Part shown: in pieces, positions 35,660 through 45,353 of the stretch
How the letters are laid out: each line of letters begins with the position of its first letter
Position numbering within the stretch: the first letter of the stretch is position 1
Assembly (NCBI GenBank): GCA_945869735.1
Contig: CAMBPQ010000001.1
Location: 62,001-126,000 of the forward strand
Length of the DNA stretch: 64,000 bases
From: Planctomicrobium piriforme
Lineage (GTDB): Bacteria; Planctomycetota; Planctomycetia; Pirellulales; UBA1268
Direction of reading: 5' to 3'
The notes under the pieces: model-generated
The model's input: only the letters and a program-made list of their open reading frames with translations
Told to the model about the DNA's origin: nothing
The model's database searches: none
Position numbers and translations under genes: made by a program

Positions 35660-36421
35660 TCACTTAGAGGCAACCGTCCGGACCGCCTGCGCCTTCGAGG
35701 CGGAGGCATCGGGAGTCGGCTCGGCAGCCGGGGCACAGCCCGCACCGCACGCCGGCTCCGCACCGCAGGCCGGCTCGCAGCAGCCGTTGCCGGCCGAGCA
35801 GTCGGGCTCACCACCGCAGCAGCTGGTGCCGCAGCAGCTCTTGCGAGCGTGCTTGGCCTTCAGCGCCGCGATCATCTCGCGGAGCGGGTGGTGCTTCTTC
35901 CGAACACCGCAGCAAGAGGCTGCACCGCAGCTGGGCTCGCAGCAGCCAGCACCGGCGTCGCAAGCGGGCTCAGTGCAACCATTGCCAGCGTCGCACGCCG
36001 GTTCGCAGCAGCCGTTTCCGGCGTCGCAAGCGGGCTCAGTGCAGCTGCCGCAGCAGCTACGATCCCGCTTGCACTTCGCGAACAGACCCTTCAGACCACC
36101 GAACAGATCATGCTTGCGGGCCTTCCGGGCACCGCAGCAGCCAGCACCGGCGTCGCAGGCCGGCTCGCAGCAGCCGTTGCCGGCGTCGCAAGCGGGTTCT
36201 GCACAACCGTTGCCAGCACCACAAGCCGGCTCGCAGCAGCCATTGCCAGCACCGGCATCGCAGCCGGGCTCGCAGCAACCAGCACCGGCGTCGCAGCCGG
36301 GCTCACAGCACGAAGCACAGCCCTTGTGGCCGAGCATCCTGTCAAGGAGCTCGAAACCGAAGGACTGGCTACAAACGGTAACGCCAAGAACCAGCGCACC
36401 GAGATACATCATACGCTTCAT
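35660..36421 (-). CDS. Secreted cysteine-rich repeat protein (CCEPxC repeats)
   Basis: 253 aa. A signal peptide (MKRMMYLGALVLGVTVCSQSFG) precedes about ten degenerate repeats of C[CAT]EP[AGS]C separated by DAGNG/DAGAG linkers. Two lysine-rich blocks interrupt the repeats (RKARKHDLFGGLKGLFAKCK; VRKKHHPLREMIAALKAKHARK). A Pro/Ala/Ser tail follows. Composition suggests an extracellular, disulfide-cross-linked or metal-binding envelope protein, and planctomycete cell walls are known to contain cysteine-rich proteins. ATG at 36421 has AAGGAG about 11 bases upstream. The gene has its own strong terminator, suggesting high expression. Confidence 0.8.
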   Translation of the reverse strand: MKRMMYLGALVLGVTVCSQSFGFELLDRMLGHKGCASCCEPGCDAGAGCCEPGCDAGAGNGCCEPACGAGNGCAEPACDAGNGCCEPACDAGAGCCGARKARKHDLFGGLKGLFAKCKRDRSCCGSCTEPACDAGNGCCEPACDAGNGCTEPACDAGAGCCEPSCGAASCCGVRKKHHPLREMIAALKAKHARKSCCGTSCCGGEPDCSAGNGCCEPACGAEPACGAGCAPAAEPTPDASASKAQAVRTVASK

Positions 36422-36675
36422 CGAGCCACATCTCCTTTGCTTATGAATCACCGGTGTGCTCGTCCCGCTTGCGACGCTGTCACCCCGAGGTTGTGATCCA
36501 CGAACTTTCCGCGGCAGGCCTGTCGAGCCATTCCGTGACTCGATTGATCGCAGGTTGCTGCCGCCCCCTGGTTGCCCGACGGGCACAGTGATGCCCCGGG
36601 GGACAAGTGGGCTATCGGCGGCCGGAGCGAAGGGGCTTGAACCGCACCCAAGTTTTTTGAACGTCGACACTTGCG

Positions 36676-36750
36676 CGTGACTGTCACGTTGAGAATGACG
36701 TGTGTGTCGGGTGCGCAAAGCCTGCGCTTTGAGGCCGCGTGATCGTCACG
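36676..36750. promoter_or_regulatory. Two CGTGA-N3-TCACG palindromes (candidate operators)
   Basis: Two 13-base palindromes, CGTGACTGTCACG (36676-36688) and CGTGATCGTCACG (36738-36750), lie 62 bases apart. They sit between the divergent cysteine-rich gene and the riboswitch promoter. They differ at two central positions only. They look like paired operator sites for an unidentified regulator of one or both flanking genes. Confidence 0.4.
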
Positions 36751-36846: not shown

Positions 36847-36874
36847 TTGACAGCCTCTGCCCCACCCCTACACT
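36847..36874 (+). promoter_or_regulatory. Sigma-70-like promoter of the riboswitch operon
   Basis: TTGACA (36847-36852) and TACACT (36869-36874) separated by 16 bases, very close to the housekeeping consensus. Transcription would begin near 36881, right before the aptamer. Confidence 0.7.
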
Positions 36875-36882
36875 CTGCCAAT

Positions 36883-37101
36883 CGACTCTGGTGGCTGGTC
36901 CGCGCGAACTCTTGCGCGGCCGGCAAACAGGGAACTCCGGTGCAATTCCGGGACGGCCCCGCCGCTGTGACCAAGCGATGAGGCCGGCTGTTTCAGGCCA
37001 TTGCCGGCGACGTTCCCGGGTTCTTCCCCGGAGCGGCCCGGTGAGAAGGCATGCAGCCGGCTGAGTTTGGAAGTCAGAAGACCTACCAGGTGTCATGAGT
37101 C
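36883..37101 (+). promoter_or_regulatory. Cobalamin (B12) riboswitch
   Basis: Conserved aptamer elements occur in order: AACAGGGAACTCCGGTGCAA, then TTCCGGGACGGCCCCGCCGC, TGTGA, and the B12-box-like GGAAGTCAGAAGACCTACC. The closing P1 stem can form between GACTC near 36884 and GAGTC near 37097. A hairpin CGGCCG-AGTGAT-CGGCCG (37132-37149) follows and may belong to the expression platform. No terminator U run is seen, so translational control is more likely. The first gene downstream is a DUF1559 protein, not a recognised B12 gene. Boundaries are approximate. Confidence 0.93.
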
Positions 37102-37260
37102 TGCCGGACCGCGAGGGCGGAAGGGTGGACACGGCCGAGTGATCGGCCGGTGGTCAGATACTCAGGATCCGCTGCTGCAAGCTCTCGGTCTTCCGTGGTG
37201 GTGCGTGTGCTGAGGCACGCGCCGTCGGCGGGGATCGTGCGCTTGCGGGCCTTCCCGCGC

Positions 37261-38112
37261 ATGAAGAAGCCGCGCTGTAGCCTTCGTATCCACCGCTCGG
37301 ACTGCGGGTCGAGTTTTCATCGTCGTGGTTTCAACCTCGTGGAGTTGCTCGTTGTCGTGGGGGTCATCGCGGGCCTCATCGCGATCCTGCTGCCGGCCGT
37401 GCAGGCGGCTCGCGAATCCGCCCGGCGGGTGTCGTGCCTCAACAACCTGCGGCACATCGGTTGCGGTCTGCACGGCCATCTCCTCGCGCGGCGGACATTC
37501 CCCATGGGCTGCACCGAGTGGCGGGCTCCGGGCAAGTCGGGCACCGAGCGGTGCCTGGCGTGGAACGCCCGGATTCTTCCCTGGCTCGAGCAGGAAGCGG
37601 TCGCCGACACGATCGATTTCTCCAAGGCGTTTGATCATCCCGTCAACGCCGCTGCGGCGGCCGTGCCCCTGGCGATTTTCCAGTGTGCGTCGGCAGACCG
37701 ACCCCAAAGCCTCGTCGGCAGCATGGGCCGCAGCGACTACGGCGGCGTGACCGGAGAGCGGATCGTCTCCCCCAACAACCCCGAGAAGGGTGTGCTGATC
37801 CATGACCGCGGAATCGCGCCACGGGAGGTGGCCGACGGCCTGTCCCGCACGATTCTCGTCGGCGAATGCGCGGCGGGTAGTTGGTCGGATGGCCAGTGGA
37901 TCAACGGGAGAAACCTGTTCGATCAGGCGTATGCCGTCAACTGGCCCACCTGGGAGGACGAACTCCGCAGCCGCCACCCCGGCGGTGCCCATGCGCTCTT
38001 CGGCGATGGCGCCGTCCGACTCATCGCCGACTCGACCGATCCCCGCATCCTCGCTGCCGCCTTCACGAGAGCCGGCGGCGAGTCACTTCCTACGGCAGGA
38101 ACCTTCCCATGA
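37261..38112 (+). CDS. DUF1559 pseudopilin-like protein under B12 riboswitch
   Basis: 283 aa. A short basic leader ends at a type IV prepilin-like cleavage/methylation site, [20 protein letters not shown], followed by [11 protein letters not shown]-like helix sequence. The DUF1559 body follows, with the conserved C-terminal H-x9-DG element ([17 protein letters not shown]). DUF1559 proteins are greatly expanded in planctomycetes and mostly uncharacterised. ATG at 37261 gives a leader of about 23 residues, like the second DUF1559 gene here; the GTG at 37150 abuts a hairpin and is less likely. Its stop overlaps the next start (ATGA). Confidence 0.9.
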
Positions 38113-38945
38113 TCAGTCGCCATCCCGCTGTGTTCTTCGCCTTCGTGGCGGTCGTGTGTCTGTCGTCGCCTGGAGTTCAGGCCACGGTCGTCGATTTTCA
38201 GGATCTCACGGTACCCGCCGCCGGGTATTTCGACGGCGACCCCGGCACTCTCACGCCGGGGCAGTCGGTGACCACGCCGTGGACTTCCGACGGCGTCGCC
38301 TTCTCCAACATCTATGGCATCGATGCCGACTACGGGTTTCCCTACTGGTATGGATTCGCATACTCGAACCAGGCGACCGTCATGAGTGGCACGGCGAAGG
38401 GTGACTTCGCGGACCAATATCTCTCGCTCCCGGGTGGCGGCTTCGCGTCGAGCACCTATGCCGTCGCCTACGACGACGGGGCGACCGTCACGCTACCCGC
38501 GCCAGCGACCGTGTCGGGATTTCGGATCGCCAACACGGCCTACACGGGACTCACGCTGCTCAACGGCGACCCCTACGGCTTCTCCCTGCCACTGCCGGAG
38601 GGCGGCTGGTTTGCCACGACCGCCATCGGCAAACTCGGTGGCACGACCACGGGCTCGGCGACCTTCTACCTTGCCGACCTCCGCACCGGCACGGTTCCCG
38701 GGGTTCTGACCACATGGGCCTGGTTCGACCTTGTCCCGCTGGGCACGGTCGATCGGATCGAGTTCGCGTTCGACGGCTCCGATAAGGGCGTGTACGGCCT
38801 CAATACCCCCGCCTATTTTGCGATGGACAGCCTGACGTTCTCCGCTGTGCCCGAGCCGGCGACGGCCGTCGCTTGCGGATTGGCGGCGATCGCGTTGGTC
38901 GCCAACCGCGCGCATCGTGTTCGGAGCCGTCTGCGCGATGCGTGA
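38109..38945 (+). CDS. DUF4465-like PEP-CTERM surface protein
   Basis: 278 aa. A signal peptide (to GVQATVVDF) leads to a beta-rich domain with DUF4465-like features: [33 protein letters not shown] and [10 protein letters not shown]. The C-terminus has the PEP-CTERM sorting signal: VPEPAT, a hydrophobic helix and an arginine-rich end ([12 protein letters not shown]), implying exosortase processing. It is coupled to the DUF1559 gene by ATGA under the B12 riboswitch. I recall DUF4465-type proteins beside B12 uptake genes in Bacteroidetes, which would make B12 binding plausible; this is not shown by the sequence. No exosortase is in the window. Confidence 0.85.
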
Positions 38946-39765
38946 ACGCCATGAACACCCGACGGAGCGGAACCGGGCGATCGAGCACAACCGTCGCGCC
39001 TGGGATCGGCTCGCGAAGGACGGGGCGGCACTCACGCGGCCGGCTACCGACGCGGCCTTCGGCGATCCCCGGAACTGGGTCGGCGGTGGCGGCACGGCGA
39101 TGCGGCCCTGGCTTCCCGAGCGACTCGACGGGCTTGAGGTGCTCTGCCTCGCCGCCGGCGGTGGCAAGCATGGACCGCTCTATGCGGCCGCGGGGGCCAG
39201 CGTCACCGTCGTCGACATCTCGCCCGCGATGCTCGCGCTCGATCGGGCGGTGTCCCGCGAGCGGCGCATCGATCTGGCCATCGCCGAAGGCTCGATGGAC
39301 GACCTCTCGATGTTCGTGACCGGTCGGTTCGACCTCGTGATCCACCCGGTGAGCACCTGCTACCTCCCCGATGTCGCGGCCGTGTTCCGGGAGGTGGCCC
39401 GGGTGACTCGAGCGGGCGGGCTCTATGTGAGCCAGCACAAATCCCCGGTGAGTCTGCAGGCAACGCTCCAGCCGAACGCCGACGGCCGCTACGAACTCGA
39501 ACATCCGCAGCAAGGCGAGACGCCGCTGCCGGCGGCGGCCCCGTCGCGGCTGCGGGAGCCCGGCACGCAGGAGTTCATTCACTCGTTTTCGGCGTTGTGC
39601 GGCGGGATCTGCGCCGCGGGCTTCGTGATCGAAGACGTCGGCGAACCCGACCATGCGCAGCCGGGAGAGGGACTGGGAACGTTTGCCCATCGGGCGGCAT
39701 TTCTGCCCCCGTACATCCGCGTCCTGGCCCGAAAAAGGGGGACGGGAGCGATTTTTCTTCGATGA
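38938..39765 (+). CDS. Class I SAM-dependent methyltransferase
   Basis: 275 aa, soluble. Motif I LEVLCLAAGGGKHGPLYAAAG and the acidic VTVVDISPAML bind S-adenosylmethionine; FDLVIHPVSTCYLPD and EVARVTRAGGLYVSQHK match later methyltransferase motifs. The substrate is unknown. ATG at 38938 overlaps the PEP-CTERM gene by eight bases, so it may belong to the riboswitch operon. Its last residues (RKRGTGAIFLR) are encoded by the left arm of a perfect inverted repeat, so the native C-terminus may have been altered by the element. Confidence 0.85.
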   Translation: MRERHEHPTERNRAIEHNRRAWDRLAKDGAALTRPATDAAFGDPRNWVGGGGTAMRPWLPERLDGLEVLCLAAGGGKHGPLYAAAGASVTVVDISPAMLALDRAVSRERRIDLAIAEGSMDDLSMFVTGRFDLVIHPVSTCYLPDVAAVFREVARVTRAGGLYVSQHKSPVSLQATLQPNADGRYELEHPQQGETPLPAAAPSRLREPGTQEFIHSFSALCGGICAAGFVIEDVGEPDHAQPGEGLGTFAHRAAFLPPYIRVLARKRGTGAIFLR

Positions 39766-44277: not shown

Positions 44278-44339
44278 AGTCTGTGGGCCGCAGGCGGCGA
44301 AGAACGCACGGTCTGGAGAAGATCCGAGAGGGACCACCG

Positions 44340-45353
44340 ATGTCGCGGCTTGAACAACGGCCAGGAATGGATGCATCACCATGCCTTCGCACGTCCCAAG
44401 GCTTCACGTTGGTGGAATTGCTCGTCGTGATCGCCATTATCGGCATGCTCATGTCGCTCCTGCTGCCGGCTGTGCAATCCGCTCGCGAGTCGAGCCGGCG
44501 GACAAGCTGCTTGACGAATCTCAAGCAGCTTGCGCTGGCGATCCACTCGCACGAGGCAACTCGGCGTGTGTTTCCAGCAGCCTACGTGGCTGATACGCGA
44601 AGCCCCCAGCGGGATCCTGTCACGCTGGATGGGCCAACTGGATTTGCCTGGGGAGCCATGCTTCTGCCGTACCTGGAGGAAGCGGCGGTTCACGGAAGGC
44701 TCAACTTCAAATTGCCGTGTGCGGATCCGCAAAACGCATCGGCGGCGATCACACCGCTGTCACTGTTTCTTTGTCCCTCAGCGACGGGAGCGTCGTCGCC
44801 ACTCGAGGTCAAGAACGCCTCGGGCACGGTGCTGGCGACCTTCGGCCGGGCAACCTACGTCGCCAACGCTGGACAGGAGGAGCCGTGGGGGCTTCCGTTG
44901 GAAGACTACAGCGGTATTGCGGACGGGCCTCTTTATCGGAACTCACGTACCCGCGCTTCCGATGTCACCGATGGCCTTTCCAAGACAGTTTTTCTCGGCG
45001 AGCACGTCGCGATTCTGGGAGGCAAAACCTGGGTCGGGGTCGTGCCTGGTGCGGAAGTTTGCCCCGCGGATACCAATCGATTCCCCAACTCCACCTGCGA
45101 TGCTGCCGCCACACTCGTGAATGTGCATAGCGGTCCCGCCTCAGGCGAGATCGATCCTGTGACCGGCTTCGCGCCGATTCATCCACCGAACAGTCCGCTG
45201 TGTCACGTCTGTCAGATGTTTGCGGAACACCCGGATGGAGCCAACGTCGCCCTCGGAGACGGGAGCGCCCGGTTCATTTCTGACACGATTGACCAGCAGA
45301 CATGGGCCGCGCTCTCGAGCCGGGCAAAGGGTGACATCGTGGGGGGATATTGA
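44340..45353 (+). CDS. DUF1559 pseudopilin-like protein beside mntR
   Basis: 337 aa. A leader of about 20 residues ends at the prepilin-type site SQGFTLVELLVVIAIIGMLM, followed by LLLPAVQSARESSRR. The DUF1559 body contains cysteine pairs (FLCPSA, CPADTNRFPNSTCD, CHVCQM) and the H-x9-DG element HPDGANVALGDGSARFI. ATG at 44340 has GAGGG eight bases upstream. It is predicted to be membrane-anchored and exposed outside the cytoplasm. Possible manganese control is inferred from the promoter. The next gene starts three bases after its stop. Confidence 0.88.
   Translation: MSRLEQRPGMDASPCLRTSQGFTLVELLVVIAIIGMLMSLLLPAVQSARESSRRTSCLTNLKQLALAIHSHEATRRVFPAAYVADTRSPQRDPVTLDGPTGFAWGAMLLPYLEEAAVHGRLNFKLPCADPQNASAAITPLSLFLCPSATGASSPLEVKNASGTVLATFGRATYVANAGQEEPWGLPLEDYSGIADGPLYRNSRTRASDVTDGLSKTVFLGEHVAILGGKTWVGVVPGAEVCPADTNRFPNSTCDAAATLVNVHSGPASGEIDPVTGFAPIHPPNSPLCHVCQMFAEHPDGANVALGDGSARFISDTIDQQTWAALSSRAKGDIVGGY

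Follow-up and report, generated by a model that had tools for sequence, protein, structure and literature searches.

The window analysed in the present work, a 64-kb stretch of planctomycete DNA, contains a cobalamin riboswitch followed by genes for a DUF1559 pseudopilin, a DUF4465 protein and a methyltransferase, and the question raised by the locus is what a set of genes of this composition has to do with B12. The same question can be asked of the class as a whole, where the usual genes leave the supply of B12 unexplained. In single-family profile searches, the method behind all of the genome-wide statements made here, cobalamin riboswitches were found in 350 of 398 class genomes, while CbiC, a marker of B12 synthesis, was found in 13 of 229 (absent in 216) and the TonB plug domain in 53 of 229 (absent in 176). 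The evidence assembled below gives good grounds for reading the cassette as a B12-repressed surface system for acquiring corrinoids. It is probably how these bacteria catch B12, because the arrangement recurs and because most of its bearers seem not to synthesize B12 and often do not carry the usual uptake genes.

The regulatory region, which like the genes lies on the forward strand, begins with a sigma-70-type promoter (TTGACA-16-TACACT, 36847..36874). The consensus scan found one match where 0.2 were expected; the pattern TTGACA-16/17-TAnnnT occupies a constant spot 5′ of the aptamer in every locus of the organism's own family that was examined, and a promoter score of at least 9 out of 12 was reached in 65% of 60 loci, compared with 2% of shuffles. 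The aptamer that follows (36879..37104) matches the Rfam covariance model RF00174 over its full length (model positions 1-189) with 84 bits, far above the gathering cut-off of 31.5 bits, and an E-value of 2.5e-20. An earlier sequence-only reading of the locus had described a near-consensus promoter and a canonical B12 aptamer, and both descriptions hold. The aptamer is the sole Rfam match within the window, and in a search of the organism's own genome it was the only cobalamin riboswitch found. Its L5 loop, CCCCGC, lies near 36957-36962, and a putative P13/L13 regulatory hairpin is predicted by RNAfold at 37099..37130, with a loop, GCGAGGG (37111-37117), that is complementary to L5 apart from a single bulged A. 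The pattern GCGNGGG occurs past the B12 box in 41 of 90 loci, compared with about 5 in shuffles, and the complementarity suggests that L5 and L13 may form a kissing interaction. A second strong hairpin, also from RNAfold, lies at 37132..37149 and has no U-run. An intrinsic terminator was searched for in the window leader and none was found, so that a transcription-attenuation platform for this riboswitch is unsupported.

Directly behind the aptamer, as had been noticed from the sequence, come three genes, with overlaps of a few bases between neighbours. The first (37261..38112) encodes a prepilin-like membrane protein, in agreement with the earlier description, with matches above the respective cut-offs to PF07596 (E 6e-44), TIGR02532 and TIGR04294; its prepilin leader and H-X9-DG motifs both score above the NCBI cut-offs. 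A start at GTG 37150 had originally been assigned to it, but comparison of the prepilin leader across the family favours ATG 37261, which is probably the true start. A structure model of the protein (pLDDT 92) contains a long N-terminal helix, residues 26-77, through which the pseudopilin may be anchored in the inner membrane, and a fold search with this model matched no solved structure beyond weak pilin matches. The third gene (38938..39765) overlaps the DUF4465 stop and encodes a class I SAM methyltransferase (Methyltransf_11, E 3e-14). A CpaM-like identity for this protein was considered and not accepted, the score being weak at 26 of 180 bits.

A connection to B12 is provided by the second gene (38109..38945), whose product has a signal-peptide-like N-terminus, a VPEP C-terminal tail and a match to PF14717 (E 2e-39, 136 bits against a cut-off of 25) that bears out its initial description as DUF4465-like. 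The statement that none of the three is a known B12 gene is by contrast out of date, and the link between DUF4465 and B12 that the sequence-only reading had suggested is now published: DUF4465 corresponds to the B12-binding BtuJ family (PMC13398666, PMC12751083), and B12 is bound by BtuJ1 and BtuJ2 of Bacteroides thetaiotaomicron and by six divergent DUF4465 proteins, one of these eight binders being “Pan” from the planctomycete Mucisphaera calidilacus (PMC13398666). The relatives of the window protein in the PDB are BtuJ1, BtuJ2 and D5EK51. Its AlphaFold2 model (pLDDT 92) has an augmented jelly-roll fold, for which Foldseek returned 4jqr at 3.7e-18, with TM scores of 0.82 to the B12-bound structure 9HMU and 0.78 to BtuJ1. 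The window motif NTAY aligns with Tyr146 in the DE loop of BtuJ1, and LNTPAYF aligns with Tyr245 in the HI loop (NTPAY); among 45 DUF4465 homologues Y145 is invariant and Y236 nearly so. B12 binding by DUF4465 is thus well supported at the level of the family, and the window protein itself would be expected to bind the ligand. The PEP-CTERM tail proposed in the sequence-only reading is less clear-cut. The Pfam score of the window copy, 13.2 bits, falls below the cut-off of 20.7, but P-E-P is invariant across the 45 aligned homologues and 32 of the 45 match PEP-CTERM at E <=0.01. Among 824 DUF4465 members, two InterPro entries that stand for C-terminal extracellular targeting motifs, IPR013424 and IPR026444, occur in 88 and 229, respectively (PMC12751083). 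The tail may anchor the window protein at the cell surface.

The composition of the cassette is not peculiar to the window. Of 398 class genomes, 101 have DUF4465. Recurrence was evaluated in 100 class loci with DUF4465 plus the window, which together hold 105 DUF4465 ORFs, with riboswitches detected by a profile built from the RF00174 hits. For 103 of the 105 ORFs a cobalamin riboswitch lies on the same strand at most 4.4 kb upstream (median 1.2 kb), and one of the two ORFs without a riboswitch is on a contig of 3.2 kb. A DUF1559 gene is located between the riboswitch and DUF4465 for 74 ORFs, and 29 DUF4465 genes have no intervening DUF1559; the order riboswitch-DUF1559-DUF4465 therefore recurs in about three quarters of the 100 class loci, which is what the idea of a cassette had called for.

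The DUF1559 family is rich in paralogues, with 68 copies in Planctopirus limnophila, two of which are essential (PMC10632474), and 74 in Rhodopirellula baltica (PMC2754498), and it might accordingly be supposed that the locus is a generic surface-protein operon in which common DUF1559 and PEP-CTERM genes have come to be paired behind a riboswitch by coincidence. This is highly improbable. The loci examined amount to 1.38 Mb, in which 77 DUF1559 ORFs (the window included) lie just 3′ of a riboswitch, compared with 23 elsewhere, and the association extends to loci selected by the riboswitch itself: a gene matching the DUF1559 profile comes next in 28 of the 30 class riboswitch loci with the highest scores, most of which have no DUF4465, and in 16 of 20 further riboswitch loci picked without DUF4465. 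In a tree of 131 DUF1559 sequences, in which the background sample is small, the riboswitch-linked members form clades of their own, clade A (75 of 76 members linked, support 0.999), to which the window protein belongs, and clade B (36 of 36, support 1.0). Of the 16 other DUF1559s, 15 fall outside clade A. The density of ORFs and the tree together speak strongly against a chance pairing of DUF1559 with the riboswitch, and the presence of a riboswitch before nearly every DUF4465 argues in the same direction. The link between DUF1559 and the cobalamin riboswitch appears to be undescribed; in the open-licence literature, no papers were found on DUF1559 with cobalamin or on a cobalamin riboswitch in planctomycetes.

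Only the N-terminal portion of the Pfam DUF1559 model is matched by clade B. Within the organism's own family, clade A plus DUF4465 alternates with clade B alone at one syntenic site, and this alternation argues for an equivalent role of the two arrangements. Both variants share a 3′ flank of methyltransferase, monooxygenase-like, pabA/trpG-like and moeA-like genes, as named from inspection of the sequence. In three loci of other families, L175 among them, the riboswitch heads a clade-B DUF1559, a DUF71, a DUF6580 and a BtuF-like gene; the DUF71 genes in these and in three further riboswitch-pseudopilin operons are of the ENGEFH type, which marks the DUF71-B12 subgroup (PMC3541065). In Phycisphaerae the riboswitch is followed by DUF4465, in many cases by another conserved secreted protein, and then by a clade-B-like pseudopilin whose identity to the clade-B protein of L175 is 32% (E 1e-28); DUF71-B12 and DUF6580 are present in some cases. 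Elsewhere, with gene names again taken from the sequence, the riboswitch heads DUF6580 directly (two loci), or it heads class I ribonucleotide reductase with MetE or NrdB (two loci) or a BtuB-like receptor (one locus). Since the neighbours are B12 genes, the argument from association is strong. DUF6580 itself occurs in 178 of 229 class genomes, the organism's own included, and in at least 28 genomes a same-strand cobalamin riboswitch precedes it by 160-3040 nt, often with BtuF-like and DUF71-B12 genes adjoining it; the copy in the organism's own genome is not next to a riboswitch. DUF6580 as a riboswitch-controlled membrane protein appears to be undescribed, no papers on it having been found in the open-licence literature, which does not prove that there are none.

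The organism is a freshwater-lake planctomycete; MAGs of this kind come from Lac Pavin, among other lakes. Its genome assembly comprises 3.17 Mb in 128 contigs and is 95% complete, so that absences are not absolute. It encodes one protein with a B12-binding domain, a MetH of 1232 aa, and neither CbiC nor a TonB plug nor FecCD was detected in this 95%-complete draft. With MetH present and these three undetected, the draft genome, as far as it goes, suggests an organism that depends on B12, does not synthesize it and is without the textbook transporters. A Bacteroides-type Btu uptake system, comprising a BtuB receptor and BtuFCD, is likewise not seen in the genome, where there is no Plug and no FecCD. 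In the class, strong FecCD matches occur in a minority of genomes. FecCD matches were counted as BtuC-like only below 1e-70; those around E 1e-8, which cover only part of the model, were left uncounted. Some class genomes with DUF4465 also carry TonB receptors or strong FecCD genes, and the cassette is therefore not simply a replacement for BtuB and BtuCD. The suggestion that pseudopilin and exosortase-sorted parts take the place of TonB-linked lipoproteins suits the organism's own genome, in which TonB plug and FecCD genes were not detected.

A mechanism consistent with these data can be sketched. The operon is most likely on when cobalamin is scarce: with little adenosylcobalamin the riboswitch would leave it on, and with plentiful adenosylcobalamin the aptamer would bind its ligand, L5 and L13 would kiss and expression would fall. 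In the exported DUF4465 jelly-roll protein, B12 would be bound between the DE and HI loops, and a PEP-CTERM/exosortase tail, rather than a lipid anchor, would keep the protein at the cell surface, while the clade-A pseudopilin, anchored in the inner membrane, would probably present, position or pass on the captured corrinoid. The idea of a surface system for capturing or handling corrinoids, as put forward in the sequence-only reading, is supported by the riboswitch, by the recurrence of the gene order and by the fold and tyrosines of DUF4465; we infer the handling of corrinoids by the pseudopilin, and the route across the membranes, the crossing of the outer membrane included, is likewise conjectural.

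Two other divisions of labour deserve to be weighed against this reading. DUF4465 could bind B12 in a cassette that only stores or pre-concentrates it, with uptake proceeding by an undetected or divergent outer-membrane route and an inner-membrane carrier such as DUF6580. The wide distribution of DUF6580, its position behind riboswitches near BtuF-like and DUF71-B12 genes, and the TonB receptors of some class members make such an accessory role a serious minority view, but the organism's own DUF6580 is not beside a riboswitch, its genome is without a plug domain, and its only riboswitch is spent on the cassette. It is a little less probable that the pseudopilin is the core of the system, with the DUF1559 proteins of both clades binding or moving corrinoids themselves and DUF4465 as an interchangeable partner. 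DUF1559 follows the riboswitch even where DUF4465 is missing, clade B replaces clade A plus DUF4465 at one site, both clades are dedicated, and clade-B relatives accompany DUF4465 in Phycisphaerae and at other loci; yet 29 DUF4465 genes have no intervening DUF1559, the DUF1559 model has no informative match in the PDB, and we know of no corrinoid-binding pilin and of no mechanism that links a pseudopilin to B12. The methyltransferase, for its part, is probably a bystander. That it shares in the corrinoid function, for example by acting on the corrinoid or on the surface protein, is improbable: its gene overlaps the DUF4465 stop, and relatives are found at 17 of 101 DUF4465 loci (the window included) and 3′ of clade-B DUF1559 at six loci, one of them (L174) in another family and the others L163-L167, but it is missing from most cassette loci, it has only a generic Methyltransf_11 match with its best NCBIfam scores far under the cut-offs, and in the organism's own family the genes that follow it, pabA/trpG-like and moeA-like, have no B12 link.

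If the cassette is indeed a surface system for acquiring corrinoids, then its conservation makes it a testable candidate for B12 acquisition in a class where the usual genes do not account for the supply, and two clades of DUF1559, a vast and unexplained planctomycete family, gain a first specific function. The data also point to DUF6580 as a predicted B12 permease. A fuller scheme of TonB-independent B12 uptake in Planctomycetota, in which riboswitch-controlled clade A and clade B pseudopilins carry corrinoids across the envelope or hand them over, PEP-CTERM-anchored DUF4465 is the surface receptor and DUF6580 is the inner-membrane carrier, is speculative and on balance unlikely.

The relation of the cassette to known systems can be stated element by element. 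The riboswitch has all of the core elements of RF00174 riboswitches, together with the B12 box, L5 and a candidate L13, and differs from them in its targets, a pseudopilin and a surface protein, and in the position of the probable start codon, ATG 37261, about 130 nt past the L13 hairpin. The pseudopilin shares the prepilin leader, the N-terminal helix and the H-X9-DG C-terminus of other planctomycete DUF1559/SBP_bac_10 (PF07596) paralogues, whereas the riboswitch-linked members form separate clades and retain a B12 neighbourhood. ENGEFH-type DUF71 genes connect the related riboswitch-pseudopilin operons to the DUF71-B12 salvage clusters, but the genes of those clusters adjoin BtuFCD or cbiB (PMC3541065), the corresponding neighbours here are DUF6580 and a clade-B pseudopilin, and the window cassette itself has no DUF71-B12.

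The DUF4465 protein belongs to the same Pfam family (DUF4465, IPR027828) as BtuJ1 and BtuJ2 of Bacteroides thetaiotaomicron and has the same jelly-roll fold (TM 0.78 to BtuJ1), with conserved B12 tyrosines in loops DE and HI and predicted cobalamin riboswitch control in common; it differs in having a putative PEP-CTERM-type tail instead of a lipoprotein anchor, and its gene is paired with a DUF1559 pseudopilin and has no adjoining btuB, btuG or btuFCD. D5EK51 (Coraliomargarita) and “Pan” (Mucisphaera calidilacus) are likewise DUF4465 proteins from outside Bacteroidetes, and B12 binding has been shown for both, in a paper whose text mentions neither pseudopilin nor DUF1559 nor PEP-CTERM (PMC13398666). 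Few structures come closer to the window model than 9HMU, the complex of D5EK51 with B12 (TM 0.82), yet the identity to D5EK51 in the structural alignment is only 24%. No paper describing the riboswitch-pseudopilin-DUF4465 combination was found in the open-licence literature. The riboswitch and DUF4465 are thus of kinds already known, but where other systems rely on TonB and lipoprotein components, the cassette appears to use dedicated pseudopilins and exosortase-type sorting, and this combination is new.

Within the Planctomycetia, a cobalamin riboswitch lies 160-3040 nt upstream of a gene of the membrane family DUF6580 (PF20221) in at least 28 genomes, and these riboswitch-linked genes are often accompanied by BtuF-like and DUF71-B12 genes. 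Members of the family are found at G000:C59:8527-9027 (genome, contig and positions; L286:7396-8091) and in loci L175, L178, L180, L059 and L237. DUF6580, on which no paper was found in the open-licence literature, is predicted to be a B12 permease.

Riboswitch operons in both Pirellulales and Phycisphaerae repeatedly encode a second conserved secreted protein, which carries the pattern 'SLGD..ITLSF..YDFAVFEN', has no assigned domain and is possibly a further corrinoid protein; sequences from these operons show 39% identity when compared. Copies lie at L174:6616-7443 (minus strand), at L223:6821-7981, at L209:6821-7879 and in L170, and the L174 copy has a PEP-CTERM-like tail. In L164 (3283-3702) and L175 (8158-8517, minus strand), the gene directly 3' of the clade-B DUF1559 pseudopilin encodes a small protein that resembles a lipoprotein and contains paired CxxC motifs; the L175 copy has no Pfam match.

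The window itself contains a second DUF1559 gene (44283-45353), with no riboswitch nearby, which groups by profile score with the non-riboswitch paralogues. Upstream of the riboswitch promoter, an ORF of cysteine-rich repeats (CCEPACDAGNGC) occupies 35660-36718 on the opposite (minus) strand.

Giant proteins of about 1500-2020 aa, each with one to three DUF4465 domains, are encoded downstream of riboswitches in L098, L104, L157 and L158; the L098 protein also contains a dockerin, and that of L158 FG-GAP and Ig-like repeats. In a single case, judged from match coordinates on a contig of only 3.2 kb (G134:C78, locus L152), a DUF4465 gene adjoins a TonB plug domain, an arrangement that resembles the DUF4465-TonB plug adjacency of Bacteroidetes.
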